From contig JAJEKV010000036.1 in assembly GCA_021234155.1 (NCBI GenBank), forward strand, positions 3,092,996-3,156,995: a DNA stretch of 64,000 nucleotides, given 5' to 3'. This DNA comes from Isoetes taiwanensis. Lineage: Eukaryota > Streptophyta > Lycopodiopsida > Isoetales > Isoetaceae. The notes beneath the pieces were generated by a model that was not told the origin of the DNA, ran no database searches, and saw only the letters and a program-made list of their open reading frames with translations. The position numbers were made by a program, and so were the translations under genes. Below, piece by piece: positions 3,001 to 29,791 of this stretch (position 1 is its first letter; every line of letters begins with the position of its first letter).

Positions 3001-4983
3001 GTGGCTTCACTTAAATGTGCTGTGCCTGACTAAAATATACTCCTGCTTTCATGTTTGAACTCATTGTGATGTAATCAAAATATCGGGTTTCTCTAACCAT
3101 CAAGTGTCTCATTCACGTGACCATTTTAGGATAATGTGAGGAGGGAGTGATGTTTTCGCGATCCGCATAGGGGAAAACATCATAAACCCCAATCATTTGC
3201 TTTTCCTCATAAACTTTTGTCTTCCTTATCATATAAGTCACATGGCCAAAATGAGACAAAGTTCTAAGTACGTCTATTAATTTGAAGCACTAACATAAAA
3301 GAAATGCGATCAAGTTCCTAAAAGTAAGAGATCTGTTAAAGGCATTATAGGCATGATGGATGAGGCAGGTTGGGCACAAATCCTACTTCCTTTGCTGCAT
3401 GGGCTACCTTGTAATGACGTTTTGGTTTTCCATTGTATGTGAAATATATTGGTAGTTTGTACCAATCAGCAAATAACCAGCATGACAAATCCGTAGTACA
3501 TATTTAAAGTAGATTACTATATTAACAAATTATACGCCCGCCATTCGGTGGGATTATTACATATTAGCAAAACACAGGGGTTAGTTCTGCAATTGGGTAT
3601 TCATTACGCTCTTTCTGTGAAAAACGAAATCGTATATTCGTAGGGCCTGCTTTGATTTTCCCATTTACCTAATTTAACTTGCCTGACACATTTCTTCCAT
3701 GGGCCCAACTGACTGTGCTCCATTTTAAACCAAAAAGCAGCGATAAAATGATCCGATTGATCTAGGCAACCCAGCAGCTACCTCGACACGGTCCATGTAC
3801 GATTATTAAACAAAACAAACAACCTAAAGCAAATCTACCGGTGGCTTTACGTTAAGCCAAAACCCATTAAATGGCAAGCAAACCAGCAACGTCGGCGGCT
3901 GCATAAAAGCTCGCTCGGTACCGGAGGGCGTGGCGCCGATCACGCCTTATGACCCTGATTGATGGTCTTTTGGGAGCTTGCCTTCGACATGCGCGGATTG
4001 CGACCATTCACATTATATTTTCTTGGAAAAAGATGAAAAGTGCTGGCTAGTTCTGTTGTTTTCAGCCTTAAAAGGAAAAAGTATACATAATGAATGGCAT
4101 CTTATGAACTGTCACAGGCCAGGCAGGAAGGTGAGACCTCCACAGTTCTCCAACTTCTTCACAAAAAACTTTCGCCTTAACCTACGTTGGGAAAAAACTT
4201 TGAGTAATGACTGGTGAGGATATCGATCTTGCTTACCTTCTGACATTTGGACAATGGAAGACAGCAGGAGCCTGGCTTCCAGGAAGCTCATGGTTGGTCT
4301 GAGGCAGCGACTCTGGGCATCCGGCTCCCAGCTTTGCCTCAAATTTGAGAGGGACCCCATGTCAGGCCTCGTCCACACTAGTAATGCAATTGTCGTCTCT
4401 ACTCCGGGTTTTGGATATCTCCAGCCAGCTAGTTCCTTTGGTCCTTTCCCTAATAACTACACCATTCTGGGACCACCACAAAGCGCTTTTTACATCAGTG
4501 CTTCACTTCAATTTATATATCACTTTTCAACCCTCTTAATTTTCAAAATATCTGCCCACACATTTTGTCGACTTCAACCGCTGCATTACTCTTCCCTGCC
4601 GTCAATCTCAGCCAAATGCTACCGCTTTTGCGCAACAATTTCACCCAACAAAATATTTTGGGGGCTTCATCTAAATAAACACCCGTTCACCGCGCACCCT
4701 TGGTAGCATTCCTTTTTGCTGACAATTACTGCGATTTCCATTCTGATCTCCATTTCAGTGCGGGTGATTTGCCCCACAAGCCATGATGCTGAGAGACCGT
4801 TTCCATGTATTCACAGACAGGGGCTCTGGTTTTTATTGCTGAAAGCCGACCAATTGGACTACATTGCAATGCCAGCTCTGCTAGGGATAGACAACTCTGC
4901 GCAAAGCTTTCCCACCTTGACCCGAGCCGTTAAAAGAGCACTTCACACTGCGACCAGATTTTCCGTTGGGCAGCAGGCCCGCG
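1..4983. other. No supported gene; mostly featureless, GC-richer at the left edge
   Basis: The first 480 bases are GC-richer and contain two overlapping short open frames that look like chance. The rest is AT-rich with scattered stop codons in all frames. On the minus strand, 4230-4378 is an open stretch ending at a plausible splice donor (GAAG then GTAAGC), but I recognise no family in it and see no partner exon. The 150-residue plus-strand frame at 4254-4706 overlaps it and looks compositionally random. No transposon end, LTR or RNA gene is recognised. Confidence 0.5.
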
Positions 4984-5194: not shown

Positions 5195-8100
5195 CTGCAA
5201 AGAATATAACCCGTGAGCCGCGCCCCACTTTCCTCATACATACCGGGCTTGATGCAGAAATCACTGCCCTCTCATAGCTCTAAGACACGGAATTTGATTC
5301 GCTAAAACTAGAAGACCTTGATGCGTTTTACATTAAAAGCCACGCGCAATTTAGTTCTTAAGGGCAATTAGTGGAGCAGATATCTTCAGTAATTCCTGAA
5401 TGGGTGCTGGGCATTACAAATTTAAATGAAATCAATCATACTAATTCTCATCATGATTTCTTTGAACTGCAGATACTGAGGAATCAACGTTTGAAGTAGG
5501 TCCCGGAGGGGCGCTACAGGTTAGTTGTAGAGCACAATCCTTGAGGGCCTCAAGCAGTGGGCAGATTCCACCGTGATAATCACCTTGGGAGTATGGAAGA
5601 AGTTTCTGCGACGGATGATCTTCACTGTAAAGTCAAAACACATCTGATATATGCATGTAACATCAACGGGTTAAATACGTTACTGTTGAATGATTTTTTA
5701 GCTCTAATACAGGGGTTAATGAATTTGGTCGAGGGCAACTCTTCAGTCTGAGCCTTTCTGCTCAGGTACACAGCTCTGCCAGTATCAGAGCGCAGTACGA
5801 AGAGATAGCTCAGTTTTATCACAGCAAAGACCACACTTGAAACACTGCAGCTTGATGATGTTTAGTTGATGAAACTTTGCTTTGACCAATACTAGGGCGT
5901 TGTATGATGGCTCCGAATAAATCTATGATACATTCACGCAGGAGCAGGCCACTTCAGAACTTACAGCCTTTTATCACCATTTTATTGTTAGATTGTAGGC
6001 TGCTCACACCTGCCGCTAATTTTTGGATCAGGCTCCATAATCAGTCGCCACACAATCCTTTGGACCGCCTATGTCAGCATATTTTCTTCCCAAACAAGAG
6101 CATTTTCCGGACAACTAGAGACAAATTCCATCCTTTTCAGAGCAGGTGTGACACAGTCACTGTGTTCGCCTTTGCCCGAGCAGTACGCTAAATCATCAAT
6201 ACCTTCCTGCATCAGCGCTCGCACAGACGTTTCAGACTGTTTCTCTTTGTTATCGTGGCCTTTTCTCTGTGCCGGTTGCTGGCATTGGTGGCTTACATTC
6301 CGGCCAAAAGCCACCATATGATCCTCATTGCGCCAGACGCCGCCGCACTGCTGCTCACATTCAGCCGGTTTCTTCCGCGGGTAATCTTTGTAAACCCTGA
6401 AACCGAAATTTCGATTAACCGGATGAAGAGATCAAAGAAGACAGAGGATTTCATCGCACTCCTATGACTCGATCGAAAAACTGCACGTTAGCGGAAGCCA
6501 TTATCCGGATCTCGCCCAAGCCATCATTCGGTCACGGGCAAACAAACGTCCAATCAACGCAACAGGATCCGATGAGCTAGTTGCTCACTCCGTCTTTGCT
6601 GATTGGGAGGTACTTTGACAAGCTGATGGACCACGTGACTGTCATATTTGCCATGGTATCTTATGACCATCACCATAAAAATAGAAGCAAATTCTTTATG
6701 ACGTGAGGTTTCAGTTTGGGAGGCTGGGGATGGCCCCCACGCCACTCACTGCTTACGTTCCGTCGGAAGCGACGCGACATTTAGTACATCCACTACTGGG
6801 ACAAAGTAAAGGCGCAGACTTCTGAAATCTATTCACACATTTCCTGAAAATGCGTACCGAAGTGGACTCGGTTGAACCTTGCCATCCTGGCAATGCGAAG
6901 GTTTACATGGAACACTTACAGCTCAGCGAAAACTCAAAATTCCGAAGTCTCGACGGCCCGGATTCCATGTGGACATAAGAGCGAAAAAAAGAGATCCTCG
7001 GTGGAGTACCAAGTTTTGGGCCTTTTCCGGCTCAAAATATAGACTCCATAATTCCGCACCAAAAGACCGATTGAGAAACTTTTCTTTCTTCACCTGGTTC
7101 CAGTTCATGGAACAAGGGGCCAAACACCTCGAAAAAAAAACCCTCAAAATCCCTATAAGGATCGCTCCTTCACAGCAGTTTGATGGCCTATTTGGGCCCG
7201 AGGTCCCGCTGTTGTCACACGCGTGCTGTGCGTGCGTTATGGCGGTTGATATTGCGGCAGCATTGCCGCGCGGCTGGCGCCCTCGGTGGGCACGTGTATG
7301 TGGTCACGGAGTGCGGGTCGGTGGCGACCAAAGTTCACACGCCCCGCGGCAGCCATTCCACCGCGAGATGTTCTGCGGGTTGTTAATGTGCTGGTTCGCC
7401 GGGGTTTTTGCTCCACATTCCGAACTACGCACCCGCATAAGCGGCAAGTTGAGAGTCTCGGCGAACAACGCTTTACGCTTTCTAACTATGACCAAATTGA
7501 TGGGTTTTGGTCGCCAGTTTTGCTATCTCTCTTCCAGCCAGCCCTTGACCTTGACGGGTGCTTCTTGCAATTTATCCTTCCGCCCGTGACTTGCAGCAAT
7601 GGAACTTGGCGGTGGTTGTAGTCTGTTTGGAAAAAGCGGGTTATGATTAAGTGTCAAATCATGAGATTCTTCACAGGTGCAATGGTTGGTAGATCCTCGA
7701 CAACTCACGAAAACGGTTTGATTTGAGGGAATGTGCCCGTTACATTAAGTGGTTGAGATCATTTTGTCCATTGAGGTTCTTGCAAGCCACATCGGCTTTC
7801 ATTTTGTCAAGCAGAGAAGGGGCTTTCCGGTGCCAGCACTATTCAGGTATTAAGCGTGATGAATTAATACCGATTTAACCCAGCACGCGAGTGTGTTTTC
7901 ACTAACTTTTAGTCAAGCTTTCGATTCAGACAACTAATGGCATTGGATTAAAATACTCCTCGCAGATCTTTTCAATCGGCCCGGCTTATATCCCGGGATG
8001 TAAATACTCAAGAAACGGCTCCCATATTTTAGATTCTTTTCATTTGTATTAGGCCACCGTCACTAACGCCATCATGAAGATGTATTCCATCTGTAAACCT

Positions 8101-13602: not shown

Positions 13603-13626
13603 GACTAAGCGTGTGCCCGGCGATCT

Positions 13627-16600
13627 TGGGCATTAAAACGGCATCAGACATGTGGAATGGGTGATAATATAGTTTATCGTGGAATAAGAATGTGTATTCG
13701 ATTTTGTAGATGTATTGGAGTGCCAAATTATATAGAGGTTTAGGGTTTAGGCATTAGCCATGGGTAGGAATAGCAAAAAGCTTAGTGTAATGGTAGATGT
13801 ATTGGAGTGCATGTAGTTTAAGATATTGGTTTAGGAGCTTAGCCGTGCTTTAGGCTTTTGGATGTATTTTTTGCATTAAATTTCTAACATTTCATGCATA
13901 GAGCCTTTTGGGTATATGCATTACCTTTAAACCCTTTTGGGCTACATTGAAAGGTTTAAAGCAAGATCTTGGGCCAACAATAAAATTTAAAGCATAAATA
14001 GTTGTGTGCTAACTTCGAAGATGCATGAACTTGAGTTGTTTAAATCAATCTCAGAGTGTTCAAAATGGTTGGAGTTGCTTATGAATAATAGTAAAAGTGT
14101 GCCTAATGTTGCCGCGCTTCTTTTAGAGCATGTGTTTATGGGCATTTAATAGCTCACAATCATAATTCCATATTGTATTCTTATGGTTATAAACGCTCCC
14201 AAAAAGACATCCAAGCATCTTTGCATGCAGTATTGATCGATTGCACTCCTTTATGATACCTCATTCATTTATATTGTTTGTTTAGTTGTGACTACTGCAT
14301 TCGTGCATGTAATTTATTGAGTCGCTTTAAATGATCAAACTACATTAAATTTGCATGCAAGGCCATTCATTAGCCTCTCATTAGCAAGTGTTATATAGTA
14401 TATCACTATATTTGCGACTAAGTGATATATAGCAACCAAGCCTTCCAAATAAAACCGCATTCTTAGCTCAAATATAGACAATTTTAAATCATAGTGCATA
14501 TTACTTCAAAACAATGCCCAAAGATGTATTTTATATATTCTCTTTTTGTGCAAGCCAAGTTAGGGCCACATGTGACCATACCCTTACAACCTTTGCAAAA
14601 TAGGGATGTCAAAGTGAAGAATGGTTTGGTCATAAACACACTTTATCATCCCAAATAGAAAACTAAATAAAGCTTTCGAAGCTTAAAAAGCTAGGATAAA
14701 AGGCCAAGGTTGAGTCTCGTGTGCCAAGGTCAAGGCCAAGTTTGAGTCTCGCTACGGAATAGTTTCAAAATATTGTCTCATTGCAAACATGGATTGTGTG
14801 AAATAATATTTCGTACAGAAAAATAATAAAGACCAAAATGCCCCTAAAGTGATTCGTCCTTGTATAGAAACATTTTCCTCTATCAAGAAAAACAAAATCA
14901 TGCCCTTCTTAGGTGAAGAAAATGACATAAATCCAGGATTGCCAAATTTTCCCTCTCAGCAGTATAATAAGATTATTAGATGTTTCACATCAAATGCGCC
15001 TTTTGCACACTATACTATACATTATCTATCAGATTTTCATATAGTTACATAATGATACATAATCCTAACTAACATGTGCCACTGTTCAAGGATGAGATAT
15101 TGCACATCCAAATCTTGGCTCAAATGCAAGGCCACACTGTTGAATGTAAATATCAGTAATTCTTGTACCATAAACATTTTAGAGGAAGGTATGTTTTAGC
15201 TGCAGTGATCAACAGTTTCAACATTTGAGGATTAATTTCTCCATAGAACTTTGTAGAGATGTTGCTGAGGTAACTTTCCACATAGATGAGCTGTCCGTTT
15301 CCCATATGGACACCTGCAAATAACCCCATAATAATTCATCATCCAATTATTTTAGGAATGCCTGATAGAACGCATGAGAAATTAAATGATTGCAACAATA
15401 CTGCAACCTTAGAGATGTATGCCATGGTACAAATATGCTTGAAAAAGTATGTGTTTGAAAGAATCAGATAGATAGTCTACGCTATCCTAATTTGAAGAAT
15501 AACCAAGAATCTAAATTAGGATTTCCTAAATAGAATAACTGCAGGAACGATGCAAGCTTTATATCTTGCCTATGCAAAAGAAAGCGATCTATGTTCAATT
15601 GCAAAAAACGATATTCAGCCTTTCAGTTATTGCGACAAAATCTCTGAGCCATAAACCAGTACATGTATGTCAAACAATTTTATATCTGCGCAACTTCATG
15701 AAAAAAGGAAACAGTGAAACTATCATAGGAAAAAAAAATAACAACCACAATACCTTTGACTGCCCTTTGACAAAGGCTGCTACAAATTATGTGAAGAGAA
15801 CAATGCTAATGTCATGAAGTTCTTGCATGATTTGAAAGCACAGCTGTTGACAACAGATAGACAAAAGAAAAAGAAACAACAAAACGATTTTAGATAGCTT
15901 CTACCTTGCATCAATGCCCTTTCCGGCTCCAAAAAGATATAAAAAATAATGTTCCTCCTCAGCCACTGCTGCCACTGGCTTCAGCATACCCGGGCTTCTG
16001 GATTTTCCATTACAATGTTTGATTCTAATGCCATGTGCTATGGCTATGCAAGAATCATGCAAACTTCATGCTTAAAAACTTAATTGTTCTCTGCAAAAAA
16101 ACATGCAAGGCAGCCTAAGAGATATTAGAAATGTGCACAATACAAAGAAAAAGGTAAGATCATGCACACGGACCCAATCTCCTTAGGCTTTCACAGAACT
16201 GGCAGAAACATACATGAGGCGGACATTCCTTGATACAGCAAGCCACAAATGTCAAACTTCAGAGGAGCCCAGGCTATTACCTTGGGAAGAATTTTTATGT
16301 AATATAGTTGAGCCTCCCTTTGCCAGGGAGTAATTGCAGCACTATTAATTCAGCTTTTATGCTTTTTTGTTCCAAGAAATAAAAACTCTCTGATGTGAGC
16401 ACTTAATCGCTATTAGCTTGTGCACCACCTGCATGAGCAGTGCAAAATCAGTGGAAAATAAATCAAAGAATCTAGATATTCAAAGTTCAAAGAGCTATAA
16501 TCTACAACTCCAAGACAAAGAGAAGGCAGTGTAATATACGGAGGTAACCTAAGTTAGCACAAACTTGAAGCCCCATCGCTGACAGTGCCCATATCTACAG

Positions 16601-16906
16601 CCCCCATTCCATTCTGCAGGCTAAAATGGCACCCCAAAATTGGACCTAAGGATAAGATCTGATTTTCGGTGAAGTCGACTATTAGTCCACGCATAGCAGA
16701 TTTCTGAGAAACTATCAAAACACTTCAGCTATTCTTTATCAAAACTATCAGGTTATCAGCCATTCTCTTCTTTGCATGACATATGTTCCATGGTTCGCAG
16801 TTAGCATTGCAAACGTTATATCCTACTGCTGGAACTTCTTCTATAATGTAAAGAATGATCTTACCTACAACCTTCTCCACGCAGGTATTTTTAATCAGGT
16901 CTGAAA
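13627..16906. other. AT-rich interior of the candidate third Helitron, no gene seen
   Basis: No supported coding sequence. Present are a direct repeat around a GTAGATGTATTGGAGTGC phrase (about 13704 and 13793) and an inverted repeat of AGTGATATATA with TATATCACT near 14400-14432. Short open frames look random. The segment could be intronic or old repeat DNA. Confidence 0.4.
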
Positions 16907-17172
16907 GATAAATAATGCAAGTGTAAGCAAACATGTCGATATAGAGAACATGTAGATATAGAAAATCCAAGAACCCTTAACAAAAACAACTCAGATAAAT
17001 AATGCAAGTGTAAGCAAACATGTAGATATAGAAAACATGTAGATATAGAAAATCCAAGAACCCTTAACAAAAACAACTCAGATAAATAATGCAAGTGTAA
17101 GCAAACGAAAACATGTAGATATAGAAAACATGTAGATATAGAAAATCCAAGAACCCTTAACAAAAACAACTA
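16907..17172. repeat. 87-bp tandem repeat, three copies
   Basis: Three near-identical units start at 16907, 16994 and 17081, each beginning GATAAATAATGCAAGTGTAA and ending with CCCTTAACAAAAACAACT. A shorter internal direct repeat (AACATGTAGATATAGAAA) occurs twice in each unit. Because 87 is a multiple of three, a minus-strand frame stays open across all copies and gives 29-residue hydrophobic repeats rich in Leu, His, Tyr and Cys. That frame has no other sign of being a gene. Confidence 0.9.
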
Positions 17173-17751
17173 TGAGGTCTTTACACGGGAATATGAGGCT
17201 ATATGAAATGAACAACTTCTGGCACTTGTTTGTTTTCTTGCAATAAGGATCCATCTATATGCTGGCACATATAGCAGCGGCAACAAATAAAAAGAAAGCA
17301 AAAAGGCCTATATTCAATACAATGCTAATCACAAAGGAGAGGGGCAGCAAATAATTCTGAGAGCAATACTTTGAGTGATGCTTCTAATTGTTGTCTAATG
17401 GAAAAGGAGGAAAGGTTGGTCAAGAAAATGAGATAAATTAATCCGTAATCATGTGGTCTAAGGATGACCATCTACTTTATGACAATGCAGATGAATATAT
17501 ACAGGTTTTGGTTGGAGGCTCTTTCCTATTTATACGTATGAAGATGGCAAATGGTTCAAGCTGCTTGACATTGATAAATTCCTACAACATACGACCACAT
17601 CTTAACCCATAAAGAAAAAGCCAATTCAAACCTGTCAAGCCAATGATAGAGCCAGGAGCATTCGTTTCTTTTCTTTTTTGCCCTTTTTGAACAGGGTTTT
17701 CTCTAGCCAATTGGGTGTGAGCGAGTGTTTTCTTAGTATTTGCCTTCAGAT
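17173..17751 (+). other. Upstream region of the BAHD gene fragment
   Basis: No coding sequence. A TATA-like phrase (CTATTTATAC, about 17527-17536) lies roughly 220 bases before the BAHD start codon. A pyrimidine-rich stretch follows at 17664-17690. This is consistent with a captured promoter and 5' leader, but promoter function is inferred only from position. Confidence 0.3.
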
Positions 17752-18153
17752 ATGGGAGCTGAAGCACCTCCGCCAGAGCAACTTACCGTCAGATTGCTGG
17801 GAAATCCTGAAATTATCACCCTTGAAGAAAATGTGCCAGATCAGGACTATTTCTTGTCCAATTCAGATCAAAACATTGCAGTGGTGATGAAGACAGTTTA
17901 TTTCTTTGATGCAAAAGAGGGCAAGTTGGAAAACCCTGCAGAGGTGCTAAAGGAGTCTCTGAAGAAGGTGCTGGTACCTGATTTTCTACTTGCTGGAAGG
18001 CTTGGCATCAGCCCTCAAGGAAAACTTCATGTAGAGTTCAGAAATCAAGGGGTGGTCTTTGTAGAGGCAGAATCAGATGGAAACATCTCTGATCTTGGAA
18101 CCGTGATCAAGCCCGAGTCAGGAACATGTCTTCTTTTTTTGTTGAATTGTTAA
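17752..18153 (+). pseudogene. BAHD acyltransferase, N-terminal fragment
   Basis: BAHD enzymes transfer acyl groups from CoA thioesters to hydroxyl or amino groups in plant secondary metabolism and in the building of suberin, cutin and lignin-related compounds. The fragment begins at an ATG (MGAEAPPPEQL) and shows typical N-terminal features in order: LSNSDQ near residue 40, VYFF near 54, an LKESLKKVLVPDFLLAGRL block, then VVFVEAESDG. Similarity ends near residue 124 and a stop follows within about ten codons. The HXXXD catalytic motif and the C-terminal DFGWG motif are therefore absent, so this is roughly 30 percent of a usual 430-450 residue enzyme. The overall look is closest to the hydroxycinnamoyl or omega-hydroxyacid transferase branch, but that is tentative. 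It lies antisense to the candidate Helitron around it, as expected for a captured gene piece. Confidence 0.8.
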
Positions 18154-18185
18154 GGTCATCAACTGTTATAAAGCAAAATAAAAAG

Positions 18186-18275
18186 AAGAATGCATGAAAA
18201 TGCCATATGAAAATGCAGAAGGCCATATGAAAATGCCATATGAGAATGCAGAAGGCCATATGAAAATGCTGATAT
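18186..18275. repeat. Short minisatellite of GCCATATGAAAATGC units
   Basis: Imperfect repeats of a CATATGAAAATGC phrase, several followed by AGAAGG, occupy this stretch directly after the truncated BAHD exon. It may mark the junction where the gene fragment ends. Confidence 0.75.
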
Positions 18276-18798
18276 GATAGAGTTGCAATCTAAGGAAAGC
18301 TATGTGACGCACTGCCCAGATTTGCAGCCAAACAATCAACTTACAGCCAATAGAAAAGCAGCCACAGAAATTTTCAGACTGGTGCATCAAGTCTTCGATT
18401 ACATTTGCTGTAAATTTGAGGTCTTTCAAAACATGAATGGTTGAAGCTAAATGAACCTTATATTCACTCTGATTATTTGTATTTTCAAAGCAACCGGATT
18501 AACCCAACTGACCCAGGAAAAGGCAATGAAAAAAACTTTATATTTACTCTGAATAAACTTATTACAGTCACTTCATTGTGAGCTGCAGCATACCACACCC
18601 TAGAAAGCATCAAGTAGAAAGAAGAATCAACTCACGTAGAAAGAAAAATCAACTAACGGTGCTGCAGCGTGCAATGGATCCACCAGTATTTCAGAACTTG
18701 TATGCACAGTCCTGCATATGAAAACGTAATAAACCTCTTGCATAAAGAAGAAATCAGACATGCACAGAGCTTAGCATAACACAAAAAAGAAAAAACAC

Positions 18799-19056
18799 CT
18801 ATTTGATCACTCGGAATGCAGCAAGCGTGATAAACAGCAAGCCTCCAAGCAAATGCCCAGCTCCTTCCTCGCCTACAGAGGTAAGATATATCTTCAACTT
18901 CAATTGTGAAACCTGAGAAAATAGATCACGAACTCAGTTTTTAGGCAAGATCCGATCCACCTGCAGCTCCACTCACCTTAGAAATCCGATTGTCCTGGCT
19001 TGTGGGCTCTTGAGCCGGTCACAAATCTGCTTGAGGCGCAACGAAAATGAGGTATA
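18799..19056 (-). pseudogene. Exon-like pair, copy A (GT-AG intron), unknown protein
   Basis: Read on the minus strand, an exon-like segment (18977-19056) ends at CTAAG followed by the donor GTGAGT. An acceptor ending TTTTCTCAG comes just before 18912, and a second exon-like segment (18799-18912) stays open for 37 codons to TAG. It encodes a peptide with the phrases TSVGEEGAGHLLGG and FITLAAFRVIK, which has the look of a short hydrophobic C-terminus. A second copy lies directly to the right. The frames of the two segments do not join cleanly across the intron, so the first segment may be untranslated or the pair may be decayed. I do not recognise the family. Confidence 0.4.
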
Positions 19057-19112
19057 ATTTCGTAGACAACTAACCCACCGAAATGACATAGAAAAGAACA
19101 CCTATTGATCAG

Positions 19113-19358
19113 TCAGAATGCAACCGTGATGAGCAGGAAGCCTCCAAGCAAATGCCTAGCTCCTTCCTCGGCTACAGAGATAAGATATAGCTTCACCTTC
19201 ACTTCTGAAACCTGAGAAAAAAGATCATGAACTCAGTGTTTATGCACATTATGATCCACCTGGAGCTCCACTCACCTTAGAAATCCGATTGTCCTGGCTT
19301 GTGTGCTCTTGAGCCGGTCACGGATCTTCTTGAGGCGCAACGAAAATGAGGTGAGCAT
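19113..19358 (-). pseudogene. Exon-like pair, copy B, tandem duplicate of copy A
   Basis: This is the same structure as the copy to its left, about 300 bp away in direct tandem. The first segment (19276-19358) begins with an ATG in this copy (MLTSFSLRLKKIRD) and ends at the donor GTGAGT. The intron ends TTTTTTCTCAG, and the second segment (19113-19211) keeps SVAEEGARHLLGGF but stops early at TGA, before the RVIK tail of copy A. Most nucleotide differences between copies in the second segment leave its hydrophobic pattern intact, which suggests past coding use. Function unknown. Confidence 0.4.
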
Positions 19359-19497
19359 AGTTTCGTATGAAACCAACCCACCGAAATGCCCTTTCACTAA
19401 ATTTTGTCATTGAATGCTGGCGGGGATGCTCAAAACCAGGATTTAATTTCGTCAACTGGCGGGGGAGTTAGATGCCGGAGGGGAGGCCGCAAGATGA

Positions 19498-19535
19498 AGG
19501 GAACGCCGCATGCGGCGTTACATGCGGCGTTCCCT
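19498..19535. repeat. Perfect 15-bp inverted repeat with 8-base loop
   Basis: AGGGAACGCCGCATG at 19498-19512 pairs exactly with CATGCGGCGTTCCCT at 19521-19535. The loop (CGGCGTTA) partly repeats the stem. It lies 39 bases from the Helitron junction at 19574/19575. This is the same subterminal zone where the better preserved Helitrons carry their GC-rich ATGTTACGC/CGGCCGG repeats. Confidence 0.9.
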
Positions 19536-19604
19536 GGCACAAATTCCAACACCCTCCAAAAATAAGAAAGAAGACTAGTAAACGTGTGCCCGACGTTGCC
19601 GGGC

Positions 19605-21943
19605 TAATGTCCCAATGATTGCCAGTCCCAATCTTCTAAAATGAATAGCTAGCATCATGGCCTTCTAAAACATGGAAACTCCTCCAACAAACTTACAACT
19701 GCTTTCTTTGATCCTGCATTATTTATCTCTCTTACAGCAGTTCAGAGATTTCAATGGCTGTAGCAAAGTTGTTTGCACTGGCCATTAGCAGGATGAAAAG
19801 GGTGCATTTACATATGCCTTGTAGTGTGAAGGCTTGAAACCCTTCTTACTTGTCATTAAAATAACATGTAAAACTCGCATATGGACAGTTTATCTCGACA
19901 CAGAACTTCCAAGCCACAAAATATAGCTATAAATTTGGCTTACGGGATTGGGACTGGCAAATAGACTAACAATGCAACATATAGTGCTTCAGAATGAAAT
20001 AGGGAAAACACAATAAAAGGTATGAAATGGCCTCAAGAATTAGCAGAGTGCATAGAAAGTAGGAAAGGTGTTCTGCTAAAGCAACAGTTTCTTTCCCAGA
20101 AAGAAAGAAAATAGTTTACCTTAAGATTTCTTTCCTTAAGATTCCTTTACTTCACGACTCCTCTGCTTCGACGAATTCGACTCCTTTGCTGATTCAAAAA
20201 AATAGACAATTACATCTTCATATTAAAGCTGAAGCAAGCATTTCGAAACTGGAAAATGCAAAACGGCATGCAAGGTAAACTTAAATCACAGAACAGAAAG
20301 CCTTACCGCAGCCTGTTAATGCCCAGAAATGGAAAAAAAACTTGGTTTGCTTCAGTGGCTCTTATCCTCCAACAACTAATCTGCAAACAGAAAATAGAAC
20401 CCAAAAATATGAAAATAGATCATTCTTATACAAAATGAAAAGACACAAATCCAGAACGAATCAATGGCAATACAGAGCAAATAAATGTCCTATATTGAGA
20501 AATAGAAATAGTAAACCTGGAATATTCTAACCATGAGCCAGTTTGCAAATGTCAAATTCTGGGATTCTTCCAGAAGCATATAGATTTGTCGAAAAGATGT
20601 AATTCTTCTCATGCATGCACCTTCTTACACTTATATATGAGGGGTCTATACCTGAAGAGATCATGAGCAATCATTAGAATAGAGTATACTACAAAAATAG
20701 AAGCAAGCAAGGAACATGGGATAAATTAGAACTTGATGTTGGCCTAGTTCTGCATAGCACAAAGAGGAGTATAGGATAGAGAGTATATATATAACAATAG
20801 CAGAAGCCAGAAAGAAACATGCAATAAATTAGAACCTGACGCTTGCTTGGACTTCAAAGCACGAACTGGAATATCAGCTTTATGCTCTTCATTGCCTAAA
20901 TCCATTGCATGGACATAACTTTGAAAGCTTCCAATCGTTACAATGGGGAATGTTACCTCTACAGTGATGCCTTAAAAAAACAGCATTGATTCTAAAGCAC
21001 AACCCTTCTAACCAACTTTTGTATATTGAATGGAAAACATAATCAAACAAATGCAACCAATTGGAGACAAACTTGGAACATAATCTAAAGAAGGGAAAAA
21101 TATGATGTACCTAATTCTTAAGCAACACCTAGTTGGTACTCTACAGCAATACTAAATGCATTCTTTTGCAGGCCTCTATAAGCAAATGCTCCTGCTATTT
21201 TTCTTTGCCTCCATATTTACCTGGATCAAATGCAAATAGAGGCTTTTTCACTCATAACAGGTCTTATAACTCAACCAAGCTCAGAATGTCTAGTACAGCT
21301 ATGACCATTGGTCTTAAGCATATGGATGCATATCGCAGTCAGTACTTCAACAGTCAGGACTACATGAATAATATGCAAAATCATCAAAAATAGGACATAC
21401 ACAGCTTATAACAAACCGCCTATACGGCCCCCATCTAAATAAACATAAAAATAATCGAATAAATGATGCAATCAAGCTGGATCTACTGTATGAGAACGCA
21501 AAGTTTAAAGCCTTTACTCACCATTTTTAATGAGCAAAGGAAGAAAGCAGACTTGCATTAAACCTTTATATTTCATTCTGCCCGCCTAATTCTTAGTCGT
21601 TGAAAGATATACCCAGCAACGATCTGATTTCATCTTGCTGGATATGAGCCCTAGTCATAACCATAGCATGTGGTCTAGTTTAGGGCCATGGAAGATCTGC
21701 AAGAAAGCAATATTTACAAAGTAAATAAAACCAATTGACTTTTGTAGCTGGAAAGGAATCATTTGCAAAAGGAAGAGTGGAACAGTGACACCTTTTGGTG
21801 GGAAGAATTTGAGAGGCTCCATAGTACCTTCTTTGTAGAATAACACTCCTCCCTTAAAAGCTTCTTGTTGCATAGAATAGTTGAAATACGTTATCACTGT
21901 CAAGACCTGCAAATGCAAAGAGCAAAGGTTGGCAGCTAAGCAT
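19605..21943. other. Interior of Helitron 1, no clear gene
   Basis: AT-rich sequence with no recognised coding family. Two segments recur in Helitron 2 in the same orientation. About 21140-21228 (AATGCATTCTTTTGCAGG onward) matches about 26985-27070. About 20090-20190 (CCAGAAAGAAAGAAAA onward) is similar to about 26335-26410. These shared interiors indicate common ancestry beyond the termini. Confidence 0.6.
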
Positions 21944-22645
21944 GTCATTAGATTGATCTACAAACAAAAGGAGAGAAGCGCCACTTTTTTTTCCGGAAGA
22001 TACACACAGTGCCAGGAATTGCATTAGCATACACATGAACAAAAAATACCTCATGATCATATGGGCCTACAAATGAAAGAAAATACTTCATGATCAGATG
22101 GGCCTACAAATGAAAGAAAATACTTCATGATCAGATGGGCCTACAAATGAAAGAAAATACCTCATGAGGGGATACGATGTTGAATGCCTTTGGGCATGAA
22201 CAGTATTGGAATTGAAATGGTTACAAAGATGACAATGCATGCAAATAGATGCTATTCTGGGGATTTCCAACAAATGGCAATGTTGACAGTTGCTGGAAGC
22301 AGAAGAAGCTTACTTTATGTCATTAGATTGATCTACAAACAAAAGGAGAGAAGCCTTACTTTTTTCCGAAGATACATACAGTGCCACGAATTGCATTAGC
22401 ATACACATGAACAAAAAATACCTCATGATCAGATGGGCCTACAAATGAAAGAAAATACTTCATGATCAGATGGGCCTACAAATGAATGAAAATACCTCAT
22501 GAGGGGATTCAAACATACGATGTTGAATGCCTTTGGGCGTGAACAGTATTGGAATTGAAATGGTTACAAAGATGACAATGCATGCAAATAGATGCTATTC
22601 TGGGGATTTCCAACAAATGGCAATGTTGACAGTTGCTGGAAGCAG
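21944..22645. repeat. 375-bp tandem duplication in Helitron 1
   Basis: Copy one (21944-22303) and copy two (22319-22645) start with TCATTAGATTGATCTACAAA and end with GTTGCTGGAAGCAG. Each contains its own smaller array of a roughly 40-bp unit (CCTCATGATCAGATGGGCCT), three units in the first copy and fewer in the second. A short open stretch (MVTKMTMHANRCYSGD) is preserved in both copies on the plus strand, but it has no recognised relatives. Confidence 0.9.
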
Positions 22646-22946
22646 GGCAAGAAGCTTTCTTTCCTTTTGCAGCACTTCTAATCTTAGCAGATTTAAGCCG
22701 TTGGGGTTGTAGCTTGTTTTGCCTTCCCAGAAATTCTAATAATTGATAATGCATCCATAAATTTAACTATAGGTCTCTAGATCATGTCATCTGCCTGTGT
22801 AAACAATAATTACCACGCAGGTCGCTAAGCTCTCAGCTTCATCCTCTCAGATGCAATCCGGCACCTCCAACATCGGATCTGGTTAAAAACAAAACGATTT
22901 ACTTGCAAAAACTTGCTTACAAAAGCTCAAAGTTGCATCTACATAC

Positions 22947-23160
22947 CTCCAGCCATATCGGGATGGAAGAAAAGAAATTCGTATGCAAGTTCCGTCCGCC
23001 ATAACCAGGAACCAATGCTACTTCGTAATAACCAAAAACCCAGTTGATGCATGCAATAAGCCTGCCAGGGTGTCTCCAGAATCAAAGGCCTGGCTGCAAA
23101 AGCTTTAAAAAATGAAGATATGAAGCTCCATATTGAAGCTTTTGTGTCCGACTTCACCAT
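22947..23160 (-). pseudogene. Captured first-exon-like segment, unknown
   Basis: On the minus strand an ATG (23158-23160) opens 71 codons to a good splice donor (CTGGAG then GTATGT) at 22946. The peptide begins MVKSDTKASIWSFISSFFKA and has alternating hydrophobic and charged stretches; an amphipathic or membrane-targeted N-terminus is possible. A diverged second copy of the sequence around the start codon (GACCTCGGCATCGCTCAGTAAAC) lies at about 23610-23640, suggesting local duplication of a 5' region. I do not recognise the family. Its sense matches that of the surrounding Helitron. Confidence 0.35.
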
Positions 23161-23924
23161 CGCTCAGTAAACCGAGGAAGGAAAATACAGATTCCGGCTT
23201 CTCTTTCTCCTGCGATGATAGCCGCCTACGAAAGAAAAAGAGCGTTAGGAATAGTAAAACGTTGGAGGGAAGATGAAGTTTGGCCGGAAAACTAAAACAT
23301 CATCAGAAAATGCCTTTTTTCCTCAGTCGATTTACCTTGTTGCTTCCTGTGACCTGAGCTCTTCTTCAGATAAATGCAAACACTCAGGTTTTTCCAGAAA
23401 ATGCTTCGTTTCTTGACAGTTTGCTACAGTACTAAGCAAGAAATAAAGAGATAAAGACAGAAGTTATGGACAAAGCAAAAAAAAACTCAGATAAAAAAAC
23501 CTAGAACAAAGCTCCCTACCACTTGTTTCAGCGACCTCTGCTTTGCCACAATGGATTAACTCAAGAAAATTCAGAAAGAACGACCACTATTTTGCTTCAA
23601 CGACCTCTGTCCGACCTCGGCATCGCTCAGTAAACTGAGGAAGGGAAAAATAGATGGATTAATCTGAACGGTTCTATAATATTGCTCTTGCTACTGCCGT
23701 TTACTAAGAAAGGAACAGAACGTTAGAATACCGTTCGGGGGAGGGTGAAATGTCGGAAAACCAAGGCACGCCGGATTGCTGTGGTCTGCTTTGGCGAGGC
23801 CGCCATGTTGTGTTAACCCAAACGCACCGCCCACACCCAAGCAAGAGAGAGAAAATTGCTGCCGGAAAGACGAAGAGAAACAACAAAAATATTTTGAAAG
23901 AAGAAGGTTGGCCGGGAAAAAGCG

Positions 23925-24014
23925 TTACATGGCCGGAAAAAGCGTAACATCCGGCGGCCGGAAAGAGGACACCGGCATCAGCAAAAACCCCAAGAAACTT
24001 TTTAAGTAAGTAGA
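23925..24014 (-). repeat. Helitron 1 5'-terminal block with GC-rich subterminal repeats
   Basis: This end holds repeated GGCCGGAAAAAGCGTTACA units followed by CATCCGGCGGCCGG, which is partly self-complementary. It finishes with AACTTTTTAAGTAAGTAGA. It is nearly identical to 29172-29278 in Helitron 2. The repeats probably mark the family's subterminal recognition region. Confidence 0.85.
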
Positions 24015-24027
24015 CTAGTAAACGTGT

Positions 24028-24044
24028 GCCCGGCGTTGCCGGGC
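24028..24044 (-). terminator. Helitron 2 3'-terminal hairpin
   Basis: Perfect 7-bp GC stem with a 3-base loop, ten bases inside the CTAG end. In Helitrons such a hairpin is thought to act as the transposition stop signal; here that role is inferred from position and form. Confidence 0.9.
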
Positions 24045-24435
24045 TAATGTGGTGGCTTGTATTCTTACTTGGCATGGGAAAGCAACCAGAAGCGGGGTAT
24101 TCAGTGCATAACTAATTTAACAAAGTAAATACCATTAAAGAAACATAGATAAATACCATTCAAGAAATATGGATGCACAAACTTCACACTCAAGACAAAC
24201 TCAGATGGAGGCAAACCTTGCATATCCAAATGTGCTGGTCTGGTACTTCCCCAGAAAGACGTCTGTTCTAAAGCACATTTACACTATCCCCCCTTTATAA
24301 AATCATATCACATTTTACTCACGCATCTTTTGGTCGAATAGCATACAGATAGTAAATCACAGTTCTTCACACATTAAAAGACTTCTGAGCAACTAATGCA
24401 GAATTCTTTCTTTGTCAACCGTACGCTGTGATCCA

Positions 24436-24569
24436 TTTCATGATCCATACCAGGTTGTTGCTCTTGCTTTTGAAGCAGAAATTGCTTGCCTTCTCCCGAC
24501 AATTTCATGATCCATACCAGGTTGTTGCTCTTGCTTTTGAAGCGGAAATTGCTTGCCTTCTCCCGACAT
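24436..24569. repeat. 67-bp tandem duplication in Helitron 2
   Basis: Two copies starting TTTCATGATCCATACCAGG at 24436 and 24503 differ at only a few bases. Each includes TTGCTTGCCTTCTCCCGACA. Confidence 0.9.
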
Positions 24570-26177
24570 TTTCACTATGTGAAACAGTAAGTACTCTTGT
24601 TAATACCATACATTAAATACAATCTAGTGCCAAACAGAAATGGTGCATACCTGCTGCTTCCTCAAACTCCAAGCTGAGATTCACAGAAGAAACTGATACT
24701 TAGTGGGAGATGCAAGATCAGAGTCGTCCGCCATGATAGCAATATAAAGGATTTGCGCCATTTGTTTATGGGCAGGAATTTAAGGAATGCGCAACATAAT
24801 GCACTGCAAAATTAGGATAACATGCAATTCAGTAATTAGGAGAGTGGCAAGATGCTAATTAATAATTTGCAGAAATATAGATAAGGAAGTCTAGGCAAGG
24901 ATAATATGTTCAATTCCTTAAATAATTTACCTTTTCTCAGTGATAACTTTAGCTTCAGCCTTTGCTGCCGTAGGCGGATATCTGCTCAAAGCCCACAGTA
25001 AGTATGAGTGCCAAAGCCAAACATTTTGTATGAACCAATCATGAACCGATACCTACTTAGAAGATGGAACGTGTGCCCAGCATTGTTGCACATAAGTAGG
25101 GGCACGTGATAGTAGTGGCATTTTTGTAGCAAGCTGCAGATACAAATAGGTCTAGAACATTAAATTATACACTTATTTCAAAGTGGAAGAAGTAAACAAA
25201 GGGGAAACAAACAACATTGTCACTTGTGAAGGTTATTTTTCCTTGTCAGGGCTCTTTATACACCTGACACGCACGCACCTTAGAGGCATATTAGCAGGAG
25301 AAAACATGCATACCTGCGTTTTCAAAAACAGTCCTTGACCAATTAAATGTCGTGTAGACAGCTAAGCCAAATAACACCAACGGGGTCAATATACAGTAGA
25401 ACCTATTAGCAAGAAGTGCTACTGCCAGACCTGTTATATTTGTAATCACATCAATATTGATCTTGTCAATAATGAAATAAAATGAGTTCCTAGATATGCT
25501 AAAATTATATGACATCAAATATGAAGCTACAAATGCTACAACAGTATCACATGACTTAGATGTGATGGTTATAAGAACATTTGAGTGCAGAGCTATTGGC
25601 CTCCAAAATACTATTATGTGTGTAAAGAGTTCTGCTTAATAATGTTCATAACAATAGCAGAAATGACGTATGGTATGTTAAGTGTTGTTATGCAGCAAGG
25701 TTTTCAGTCCTTATCCCATATTGGAAGCTTCCATCCATCCATTTAAATATAATAAATAGTTCAGATTTAGCACCACCAAGAACGGTTGGGCAAAGTCAAG
25801 GGCCCGAAGGATGTCCTGTTACATACAATAGCATGTGAGAATTATAGAAGCTAAGGCTTCTCTTAATAGGTGACATATTGAAACATAAGAAAATTATTAC
25901 CTACATAGCCTCGTCAAATGCACAGAGCCCAATCACACCATGTTACTGTTGTTTAAAAGGAAGACCTGCCATAATGCTATGGCAATGAGAGTACATCTCC
26001 AAGGTCACATCGCCTTGTAGCAGCATTTGTAGCTGTACAGCTTATGCACTTGCATTGTTTGTTTAACAGCAGAGATAGGAATAGAAAAAATCAAATGGTC
26101 CTGCTTTGCTATGCATAAATCTTCTAGATGCTTTGCAACTGTTAGAAGAAGGGCCTGTAAACATTTCTTACCTTAAC
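24570..26177. other. Interior of Helitron 2, no clear gene
   Basis: AT-rich with no recognised coding family. At 25056-25096 there is a decayed copy of the family's 3' end: CTTAG, then ACGTGTGCCCAGCATTG, then TTGCACATAAG. Short open frames in this stretch look random. Confidence 0.5.
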
Positions 26178-26303
26178 CCAACAAATCTGGAAATGCTGTT
26201 ACAGGTTACAAAATCACGCATTTGCATGGCAGATAAAGATCCAACAAATCTGGAAATGGTGTTACAGGTTATAAAATCACGCATTTGCATGGCAGATAGA
26301 GTT
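26178..26303. repeat. 63-bp tandem duplication
   Basis: Two copies beginning CCAACAAATCTGGAAATG (26178 and 26241) and ending in GCATTTGCATGGCAGATA. As 63 is a multiple of three, the 120-codon plus-strand frame around it stays open with a 21-residue repeat (NLEMLLQVTKSRICMAD), but nothing else marks it as a gene. Confidence 0.9.
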
Positions 26304-26515
26304 GTAACTTCTGTTAAGGGCCGCAGCAGGTTAACCCCAGAAAGAAAGAAAAGATTATACCTTAATCCTCTGCTTCACCGATTCCTATTCTTCAGTGACT
26401 CCTATGCTTCAACAACTGCCAGCACACTAAGATTTAGAGTTGGAGAAGATTGTAAATCAGAGTTTTAACTTTTGTTAAGACCCATAGCCTGAATCTTGCT
26501 AACGTTTCACTCTAC

Positions 26516-26801
26516 ATGTTCAGTGCCTGTGGCTTTCCAGTAGCCGAAAGTAGCAGATCTAGTAGCCGAAAGTAGCAGATCTGTTGGGGCGAGCTTCATT
26601 AGGATATTTTCTATCTCTGGGAGTTAAGAAATACCATTCCTTTTCTCCTAAATAGGCCAGCGTCGGAAGATCCCAGGGATCGTGCTTGTAAAGATCTATT
26701 TGGGCTATCACATTTGGCCCAAAATTAGTGTCGGATCTTTTTGCCAGATAATGCACTACCAGTTCTTCATCAGTTAGATGAAATTTGAACCCTGGCGGCA
26801 T
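26516..26801 (-). pseudogene. NAC-domain transcription factor, N-terminal fragment, frameshifted
   Basis: NAC proteins are plant-specific transcription factors whose N-terminal NAM domain binds DNA. From an ATG at 26801 the peptide shows subdomains A to [20 protein letters not shown] (A), then [12 protein letters not shown] (B), then [17 protein letters not shown] and [10 protein letters not shown] (C). A 22-bp exact tandem duplication (26539-26560 and 26561-26582) then introduces a stop and a shift. Beyond it the ancestral frame resumes with YWKATGTEH (subdomain D start). The rest of the roughly 150-residue domain and the activation region are missing. Many NAC genes have an intron between subdomains B and C and none is seen here; a captured processed copy is possible, but lineage differences in intron position could also explain this. 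It lies inside Helitron 2 in the same sense. Confidence 0.9.
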
Positions 26802-29171
26802 CTTTCTAGCTGCTCTGGAATTAGCTTATAAACCCCCTCTTTATTTATTTTACTCTTCTTTTTATTTGTATCTAGAAAGCACACATTTCTATTATCTCAG
26901 AGTTTTAACAGAAACTCCCAGAGTTTAAATTAGATTGTACCTTGCTCTTTGTACGACTGATTTAGTGGGCAGAGAGGCTGGTACCCTACAGCAATAGTAA
27001 ATGCATTCTTTTGCAGGCCTCTATAAGCAAATGCTCCTGCTATTTTTCTTTGCCTCCATATTTACCTAGATCTGTGCAAGCATCACCTTATGCTTAAAGT
27101 ATGTTACCAATTTCTCTGGCCCGTCTTAGATGTTGCAGTCTTACCTTTGTAATGCTTCACAATTTGACAAAGGCATATGTAAAATAAATCTCTAATGCAT
27201 GGACTTTACAGATGAACTGGACAAATTATTGGACTGTAGATTATGATCATAATACTGAACCGTGCAACACAAATGCTTAGTACCTTCAAAGATGTAACGA
27301 CGACTTTGTCCTTCGTGCTTGTTGGAAAAACTGAGGCGCAACTTCTCAGATGGAAACAAAAAGGCATTAGTTGGAAATATAATAAAATTGAACAGTAATT
27401 CACAAAAGTAAAAAAAAAACACACATGTTTATTGGGACAATTTAATCTTTTATCAACAAAGATATATTAAATGACCGTTGCAGAAAATGGAACATCTACA
27501 GAAACAAAGAAACATACCGTATTGCTTATATATTGCTTTGCATGTGCTGGTAGAAGTCTTCCGAAACTTTACAGCAACATGAAACTTAACATTCACCATG
27601 AAGAGAATCTGCAAAAAATCTTCCATCTTAGTAAAAGATCATTGGCCTCGATCATTTAGAAACAATCGTTGTAAGACAGAATGGAATATCAGATCCTCAT
27701 TGATATTTATAAGAATCGTTTGCTTAAAAGAAAACGTCAATGCAATTTATAAATGATCTAAGACTTCCTGTGCCATGTTCGTAACTTATCATTGGAAAAG
27801 TGCACTACTAATGCATTGAAAAAGTGCACTACTAATGCAATAGATTTTTCCACAGCAAACAGAAGACAAACAGATCCTTACCTTGCCAATTTCGATGTCT
27901 TTTGCTCCTCCTTACCTTTCCAGCACAGTATTCTACAACAGTATTTTCCAAGTGGCACATAATTATCACAGTCCAAGAGGCATACAATCTTCAATTCCTG
28001 CATAATAAAATGCGTAGATCATATAGCTGTGTAAACTCTAGATAGTACCATTGATTGTTGATGATTATATCTTGATCTACAAATCTGGTTCTGCAACATT
28101 GCTAGGCCAAACGACATGCATCTGCACAAAGTATATACATACAACTATCATTTCAATAAAGTGCATACCTAAAGGAGCTTGTTTTGCAGTGTTAGTAGAA
28201 AATTGTTAAGACTTCGGTTGATGCTGATGCAAAACCTGCGGCTTATGCTCACAAAAGAGTGCCGCTTATGTTGATGTTGAAGGATAAAAAGAACCTGCTA
28301 TACGAAAATATGTTGATCTCCTCACGCTGCAAGGAAACAATGTTTTAGTCTATCAATGGCTGCTTTGAATTCCATGGCTAGGTCCTAGTTTACATTTCCT
28401 AACTGCTCCCATTACCTGCACTTATTGGGGTGTAGTTGTTGATGTTGAAGGGGACCACAGAACCTACTACACAAAAATATGCTAATCTCTCACTCTGCAA
28501 AAAAGGAAAAATGGTTCAGTCTATCAAGAAATGGAAGCGTAGCATCAAAATAATCAAATTTGTGCACCTTTAACAACAAACAATTAGAAGCCACATCCAG
28601 CAAGCCGTTTCCTTGAGCGCATCACATTAGCCATTGTATGTTACCAATTTCTCTTGCAAAACGGATTACCTCCATAAGGAAAACCTCCAGGACCTGAGAC
28701 AGAACAAAACACAAATGCAAGATTACCATTCTTGCTTGTAGCTTAACCCAATCAGCTATAATAAAAATGATCGAGAGCCCTAAGAATGGGGCCGTATTTC
28801 AGTACAGAATGGTAGCAAGATTAGCAGATGCAATCGAATATTAACCCTAAGTCCATACCAAGTTGGCCCTAAATCCAAATCCGACCCTTAAATCCAAATC
28901 CAACCCTCTTCTTCAAGCAGGTCAAGATGAGTAAGACATGGCTTCAAGCTCCAGCGATGAAGCCAGACGAAAAAAAACAGACCTGCTTGTGGTGGGCGAT
29001 CCATAAACAACCGCGTAAGATTGCTTTGCTTTAGAACCTAAAACTCTCTCGATTTCCTTGATCATAAGGCGGAGGGTTACAGCATTACAGCGCCGCACGT
29101 CTCAAACCCTAGTCCCGAACTAAAAATGAAGGAAAGGAAAACTTTGCCCGGAAAATGGAAAATCGGTGCTA
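26802..29171. other. Right interior of Helitron 2, no clear gene
   Basis: Contains the segment at about 26985-27070 shared with Helitron 1, and a short direct duplication (TTGAAAAAGTGCACTACTAA, about 27790-27840). A repeated phrase ending TGATGTTGAAGG occurs near 28260 and 28440. No coding family is recognised. Confidence 0.5.
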
Positions 29172-29278
29172 GAATGGCCGGAAAAAGCGTTACACGCCGG
29201 AAAAAGCGTTACATCCGGCGGCCGGAAAGGGGACACCGGCATCAGCAAAAACCCCCAAAAACTTTTTAAGTAAGTAGA
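29172..29278 (-). repeat. Helitron 2 5'-terminal block
   Basis: Two GCCGGAAAAAGCGTTACA units, CATCCGGCGGCCGG, and the outer AACTTTTTAAGTAAGTAGA, in the same order as the 5' block of Helitron 1 and nearly identical to it. The next base, 29279, is T, as expected for a Helitron edge on this orientation. Confidence 0.88.
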
Positions 29279-29791
29279 TGTTATGTTGTTCTACGTAATG
29301 ATTGAGTTGATTTTAAGCTTTCAGTAAATAGGCATTGCATGACATTCTGCAAAACCAAGCAAAAAGAAATTTGCACAGAGGGCCAGGGATGCACAGAGGG
29401 CCAGGGATGCTTCGATGGCTTCAATATTTTGCAAAATAATGATCCTCCTTGGCAATAACATAATTACTAGAAATAAGCATGAGGACTTGTAGTATGTGTA
29501 TGTTTTTTAGATCCATCCCAATTCATAGAGTACCTTGAATATCCATATGTTCATAGAGTAGGACCGTCCCAAATCCGAAAGTGTGGTGCTGAAAATTTTA
29601 TGGCAAATCATTTTGATCGCCATTACCGTTGAAAGTATGGGCTCACATACGCCTACCATAAGGCCGAGGGAGATTAAGTATCTATGGTTTTGTATTGAGT
29701 TTTGGAATGAAAGCACTTCTAGGAACTAGCTCTTTGGTCCGTTGTAGACCGGCCAACCGCCTGTGATTAGCTTGTTTATGATGAAATAACC
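29279..29791. other. Flank between Helitron 2 and the PPR remnant
   Basis: No supported gene. A 19-bp direct duplication (GCACAGAGGGCCAGGGATG) occurs at about 29374-29410. The 69-codon minus-strand frame here is antisense to a region that may be part of the PPR remnant and is not supported. Confidence 0.4.

Follow-up and report, generated by a model that had tools for sequence, protein, structure and literature searches.

We found that the window analysed here, a 64,000-nt stretch of the Isoetes taiwanensis genome, contains three unlike Helitrons (A, B and C) arranged head-to-tail on the minus strand in the 5′ to 3′ order A-B-C, with zero bases between the units, and that the three together occupy one host A/T site. 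Joins of the same kind occur in hundreds in this genome. We favour the explanation, to which we assign a probability of about 0.55, that the train was built by separate insertions at the 5′ end of a resident element, recognised by RepHel, in the order C, B, A. The window covers positions 3,092,996-3,156,995 of the forward strand of contig JAJEKV010000036.1 in assembly GCA_021234155.1 (G000:C1041:3092996-3156995), and the genome comprises 1.66 Gb in 1110 contigs.

Three unlike Helitrons at one host A/T site

Helitron A (24015-29278, minus strand, 5264 bp) has its 5′ end at 29278 (TCTACTTACTTAAAAAG) and its 3′ end, CTAG, at 24015. Helitron B (19575-24014, minus strand, 4440 bp) starts with TC at the adjoining base, and the join at 24015/24014 (junction region 24005-24050) reads GCCCGGCAACGCCGGGCACACGTTTACTAG on the minus strand, followed without an intervening base by TCTACTTACTTAAAAAGTTTCTTGGGG. 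Both elements are non-autonomous, and neither contains an ORF longer than 135 aa. They have a 5′ end of one kind, TCTACTTACTTAAAAAGTTT, and the common 3′ end GCCCGGCAACGCCGGGCACACGTTTACTAG, with one substitution in B. BLAST analysis revealed that about 105 bp at the 5′ ends were common at 93% and 36 bp at the 3′ ends at 97%; the remaining matches were an internal piece of 94 bp (97%) and a single segment of about 80 bp (78%), with no further BLAST similarity between A and B and a neighbour coverage of 4%. The seamless pair with both members complete and different interiors, as proposed in the preliminary description, was thus confirmed from the sequence and by BLAST. The termini of A and B (TC...CTAG) are the canonical Helitron termini, 5′ TC and 3′ CTRR. 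The 3′ end of A (24015-24050, minus strand) carries a hairpin with a 7-bp stem and a 3-nt loop, 13 nt before the end (z -4.3); the 3′ end of B (19575-19610, minus strand) carries this hairpin too, but a single substitution disrupts one of its pairs (z -2.4). Both stems end 13 nt from the terminus, within the distance of about 10-15 nt that is typical of the class, and no inverted repeats of at least 40 bases were found in the window.

Helitron C (13605-19574, minus strand, 5970 bp) belongs to another family, with the 5′ end TCTTCTTTCTTATTTTTGG and the 3′ end GCCGGGCACACGCTTAG. The B-C join at 19575/19574 (19565-19610, minus strand) also lacks any intervening base, and there was no BLAST similarity between B and C (coverage 0%). 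Helitron C has the 5′ TC and the A/T target, its 3′ end is CTTAG, not CTAG, and its hairpin is weak (z -0.8); across 36 positions, the deviation from the family 3′ end was 0 in A, 1 in B and 12 in C. The 3′ boundary of C was set by the empty site in contig C1068, and matches to several other copies of C stop at query positions 5964-5980. The C-type 5′ end had 213 matches genome-wide at no more than one mismatch (11 in the backwards control), and A precedes all 52 exact matches listed, as judged by eye. The first letter of this search pattern bars standard 3′ ends at that distance, so that joins onto C-type ends escape the count; only two such joins are known, the B-C join of the window and one at C164:121538. 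A captured gene fragment lies within C at 17737-18153 on the plus strand and matches the N-terminal part of an acyltransferase (Pfam Transferase, PF02458; E 8e-18, profile positions 9-119 of 434), which we take to be of the family named 'BAHD'. Internal tandem repeats were seen in B (21942-22662, two copies of 345-375 bp) and in C (18788-19388, two copies of about 300 bp; 16906-17172, three copies of 87 bp).

The host bases of the target were identified by flank comparison as the A at 29279, directly upstream of the 5′ end of A on the minus strand, and the T at 13604. In contig C1068 the flank adjoining window position 29279 directly abuts the flank adjoining 13604, and the joined window flanks align through the join at 89% in C1068, 81% in C963 and 81% at C1041:4537588. 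These three loci, which are paralogues and not alleles, have an uninterrupted A/T, with …ACA followed directly by TCATTGTAAAC; therefore the entire 15.7-kb block 13605-29278 is missing there, and C spans 13605-19574. In C963 and at C1041:4537588 the upstream flank adjoining the site is only 77-78% identical. The empty-site search suggested in the preliminary description was thus successful, and the results agree with its single A/T target; the insertion left no target duplication. The outer bases given there were not correct on the left side: the supposed host T at 19574 is the first base of Helitron C, and the true outer bases are 29279 and 13604. The upstream flank of the paralogue in C1041 (4537189-4544488) is itself broken about 155 bp before the A/T by some 6.6 kb of other DNA, and a gap of similar size is present in the C963 paralogue.

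No locus was found with C alone or B alone at the A/T of the window. In contig C908 a copy of the 3′ half of C (88.9% identity), broken off at C position 3194, adjoins the same host flank. This C-like element (within C908:13694451-13700450, minus strand) ends with GTTCTAG just before the host TCATTGTAAAC, the host flank starting at C908:13695666. Alignment with the window copy fails over the final 40 bp (GTTCTAG versus CGCTTAG), while the rest is 89% alike; this points to replacement of the 3′ end or to insertion of two related elements at the same A/T in paralogous loci. The C908 locus was considered as a date for the insertion of C and dropped, because of the end mismatch and because, in the downstream flank, each of the two loci resembles the empty C1068 locus more closely than it resembles the other; a single common insertion is thus uncertain.

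DNA searches with A and with B, in each of which the best 40 candidates were scored, revealed two more full-length copies of B, at C209:28418-32855 (99%) and C771:5212-9618 (96%), so that among these candidates B is the same 4.4-kb unit in three of three full-length copies. All three copies of B are joined without a gap at either end, and each has its own neighbours upstream and downstream; two of these joins involve degraded 3′ ends. The unit upstream of B in C771 has only a 300-bp repeat in common with A. The search for other copies of each Helitron, as the preliminary description had advised, thus succeeded for B, while for A it yielded pieces and no second full-length copy among the best 40 candidates scored. 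Likewise, neither A-B nor B-C turned up again as a block among the candidates scored in either search. The window copy of B differs from the C209 copy at 25 of 4346 ungapped aligned sites, and private changes number 4 in the window, 19 in C209 and 25 in C771. Dating B by its copies was rejected as uninformative on order; the branches are unequal, and the outcome would depend on the donor.

Seamless joins across the genome

An exact search for the 20-base 3′ end gave 861 matches in the genome, and joins of CTAG directly to TCTNCTTNCTTA occur 373 times at no more than two mismatches; the backwards-sequence controls, against which the pattern counts were set, gave 0 in both cases, which excludes chance. 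Where individual ends or joins were listed, the first matches in contig order served as the sample. None of the 100 joins listed had a mismatch, and 98 of them read TCTACTTACTTA. By comparison with these at least 98 exact TCTACTTACTTA joins, exact ends spaced by 1-20 bases were found in two cases, both with an extra TTTACTAG. These two gapped joins (C1064:44849-44880 and C1064:49858-49889) have the 8 extra bases between the 3′ and 5′ ends, perhaps as a second cleavage site.

We found that 35 of 100 listed family 5′ ends (288 in total) directly follow a 3′ end, 32 of these 3′ ends being recognisable and 3 degraded, as judged by eye. The reverse comparison was similar: among 100 listed CACACG 3′ ends (969 in total), 27 run into a 5′ end, 26 of the family type and 1 of the C type, and among 100 listed CACCCG 3′ ends (129 in total) the number was 31, including three variants assigned by hand. 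Uniform insertion would give an expectation of 3-5e-6 (about 4 per million) over about 2.8e8 oriented AT sites with 861-1500 residents, the resident numbers 1200 and 1500 in this estimate being guesses. This excess at a gap of zero suggests that new Helitron copies often land exactly on the front edge of a resident. Head-to-head 5′ ends (TTAAGTAGA joined to TCTACTTACTTAA), with opposite orientation at an A/T edge, were also seen in 2 of 100 listed 5′ ends, at C913:496774-496808 and C963:8968389-8968423.

Neighbouring units were then compared at ten further loci, including arrays with B or of great length (C771, C209 and C907), arrays with RepHel or regular spacing (C1018, C317 and C1045) and C974, C1030, C1035 and C1052, which together with C907 represent every 20th of the 100 listed joins. 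Incomplete units were compared over the fetched stretch only, and one C1052 pair whose upstream side is host was omitted. Among the 33 neighbour pairs, the shared part is no more than 15% of the shorter member in 20; in 11 pairs (five in C317, four in C1035 and two in C1045) the units are copies or deletion derivatives of each other, and two pairs, both in C1018, are ambiguous; the every-20th sample gave four unlike and one like. Arrays in which neighbours are mutual copies were thus present at C317, C1035 and part of C1045, whereas A, B and C are not copies of one another. At C317:46404-63209 four complete units of 4.19-4.21 kb lie head-to-tail with parts of two more, all 93-97% alike. The 9.4-kb unit that precedes B in C209 matches a C1045 unit at about 90% along 7.9 kb. 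A duplicated pair in C1001 was tried as a before-and-after case and set aside; the junction region of the second copy matches a stretch of the first (82%), and no clear before and after emerged.

Target preference and the proposed growth of the train

The flanks of the 5′ ends bear on where a new element can land. A precedes TC in all 61 distinct flanks of listed 5′ ends that are not Helitron 3′ ends (60 host flanks and one head-to-head Helitron pair), with four duplicates merged and the three degraded 3′ ends not counted; the patterns covered flanks whose outermost base is other than C (or G). Because of this uniformity A/TC is the canonical target and G/T at the 3′ edge of a resident is not. 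Insertion at a 5′ edge is therefore compatible with this rule as it stands, whereas insertion after CTAG would require G/T.

The downstream host flanks (two sets with different 3′ ends, of 72 and 64 distinct flanks) revealed a motif, T-N5-YTTAAA, with T at +1 in 69/72 and 63/64, T at +8 in 51/72 and 48/64, against a background of 0.29, and A at positions +10 to +12. When a matrix was trained on either flank set and applied to the other, it distinguished those flanks from background AT sites with an AUC of 0.93. When the family 5′ end was compared with this motif, it ranked in the top 12% of AT sites using the full matrix in a fixed register, in the top 25-32% using the core alone, and in about the top 1% when a core shift of 2 nt was allowed; the common 5′ variant TCTACTTATTTAAA ranked in the top 4-5% with the full matrix and the 5′ end of C in the top 8-11%. 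Mimicry of the target motif was rejected as the full cause of the joins, since even motif-limited insertion would fall several hundredfold short of the excess by our estimate. The moderate match being far too small, we therefore infer that the resident 5′ end itself is recognised.

Stepwise insertion at the 5′ edge would proceed as follows. Helitron C would have inserted first, between the host A and T; B would have come next, between the same host A and the first T of C; and A would have inserted last, in front of B. A resident 5′ end may be a ready integration site because recognising and nicking a Helitron 5′ end (A/TC) would be the normal first step of RepHel in any case, and the incoming strand would be joined to the host A and the TC of the resident. 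This mechanism is probable and the order of events unproven; we infer that site selection is governed by RepHel and that the elements entered in the order C, B, A. More tentatively, RepHel may prefer resident 5′ ends as docking and integration sites, and so string unlike elements at one A/T, the host rule A/T-N5-YTTAAA being a weak form of the same recognition, which a complete 5′ end would satisfy strongly; we consider this wider rule possible, somewhat short of an even chance. The decay of 3′ ends is consistent with growth on the 5′ side in the window, C771, C974 and C1035, is against it in C317 and C907, where the most deviant 3′ end is upstream, and gives a mixed picture in C1045 and in C209, where B is intact and a unit upstream of it has a degraded 3′ end, opposite to simple 5′-side growth. 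The worse 3′ end of C may be due only to C being of another family. Furthermore, the same interiors at 11 of 33 neighbour pairs fit rolling-circle concatemers or duplication and count against stepwise insertion.

The reverse order would result if a second Helitron entered right after the CTAG of a resident, at G/T, attracted by the lingering T-N5-YTTAAA, which would make A the oldest and C the youngest. This is one of two models published for a maize pair (PMC2267711), for which the reported PCR data fit such an order without excision (PMC2267711). The motif analysis implies that the host motif still adjoins the 3′ end of a resident, and some upstream members in C209, C317 and C907 have the more deviant 3′ ends. 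However, with A in 61 of 61 distinct non-3′-end flanks, G/T would serve only beside Helitrons, the 3′ end of A in the window is intact and that of C most deviant, and the host motif alone cannot yield an excess of the observed size. We therefore regard re-use of the 3′ edge as unlikely.

Recombination, which we consider slightly less probable again, could also give a seamless product, if a circular Helitron with a joined 3′-5′ junction recombined through the common 5′-terminal 80-105 bp, or if unequal exchange shuffled existing arrays. A and B share 106 bp at 93%, and many neighbours have 80-100 bp in common at their 5′ ends. In C209 (42217-59785) two unlike Helitrons follow each other in the order X-Y-X′-Y′, with repeats 94% and 95.6% alike, an order suggestive of a two-unit block that was exchanged, duplicated or moved as one. 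Such an origin is hard to apply to the B-C join, where no similarity was detectable (coverage 0.00), or to other neighbours with only about 80 bp at about 80% in common, and the plentiful single, host-flanked copies indicate that ordinary insertion has been active.

The preliminary description had offered two mechanisms, landing at an A/T edge and one rolling-circle event running past a terminator. The first is better supported by our data, and the second is disfavoured for this trio because B recurs elsewhere, with other neighbours, as an identical discrete unit of 4.4 kb; it would suit the arrays of this genome whose units have the same interiors. Copying and insertion of A-B-C as one block from a donor array might draw on composite movement of the kind that X-Y-X′-Y′ in C209 may represent, arrays with the same interiors do exist (C317, C1035 and part of C1045), and head-to-tail junctions have been cited in support of rolling-circle transposition (PMC5876387). 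Nevertheless, among the best 40 candidates scored there was no second A-B or B-C block and no full-length copy of A, the other full copies of B have other neighbours, and the donor array would itself still need a building mechanism, all of which makes block transfer improbable. An assembly artefact at 24014/24015, which the preliminary description had named as a finding that would overturn its reading and for which we found no support, is unlikely because the two other full-length copies of B also sit in seamless arrays with other neighbours, and with 373 such joins, B in three independent arrays, a fixed single-base register and an intact empty site in three loci we give it practically no weight.

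Relation to known arrays and a RepHel-bearing unit

That tandem Helitrons are known, as the preliminary description stated, is correct, and a seamless pair with different contents is also in print. The 2008 maize report describes one such pair, with CTAG directly followed by the TC of the next element, different contents, lines carrying neither element and a proposal of consecutive insertion in which two insertion orders were left open (PMC2267711). The present genome differs from that single pair in its three units, 373 joins, B in three arrays and host motif, the order being unproven in both (PMC2267711). Rolling-circle-amplified centromeric arrays of plants, described by Xiong, Dooner and Du in 2016, are likewise tandem arrays of Helitrons; as summarised in a review, their repeats are truncated, and many of them combine several 5′ ends with a single 3′ end (PMC12628747). 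In contrast, units here have both ends, A, B and C each carrying its own 3′ end, and neighbours often differ, while the C317 units are equal yet complete. Tandem junctions in bats and plants and Helraiser circles have the same precise RTS-to-LTS junction and A/T target (PMC5876387; the bat report also via PMC2267711), but they involve one element, and the passages on them describe no edge insertion of unlike elements (PMC5876387). The same source states that Helitrons integrate between A and T and that Helraiser depends crucially on its left terminal sequence (PMC5876387). Insertion into or beside the 5′ ends of other Helitrons has been discussed for FoHeli in Fusarium; those elements are another Helitron variant with a TNAT/A target, and the report covers few cases, including one insertion 2 bp from the resident (PMC5148889). 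In Drosophila, insertion-site preference is the main source of TE dimers according to a review (PMC12628747).

A partial literature search, which is weak evidence, found no genome-wide account of unlike seamless Helitron trains or of a T-N5-YTTAAA target motif; the kind of arrangement is thus already known, and its scale, its replication and a testable target rule appear to be new. The maize report of 2008 did not decide between the 5′ edge (A/T) and the 3′ edge (G/T) (PMC2267711); rolling-circle read-through is a third option, and in the reports cited here all of these rest on few cases. In this genome the joins run to hundreds, 20 of the 33 neighbour pairs examined are unlike, B recurs in three arrays, and both an empty site and a motif that can be quantified are available. 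If elements do insert at the 5′ edge, trains would unite unlike captured gene fragments at one site, perhaps mobile as composites.

A RepHel search with Pfam PF14214 scored the best 150 of 1813 candidates, and all 150 places were above the cut-off. One match, at C1018:33465824, lies in a 13,441-bp unit between two seamless joins with ends of the A/B kind. Its RepHel frame is open, measuring 1881 aa in the DNA retrieved for this locus and 1979 aa in the profile search, and contains Helitron_like_N and PIF1. A second match between two joins was found at C1045:4350185. In C1018 (33455771-33456294) a 524-bp mini-Helitron with a host A upstream is joined seamlessly to the 13.4-kb RepHel element behind it.
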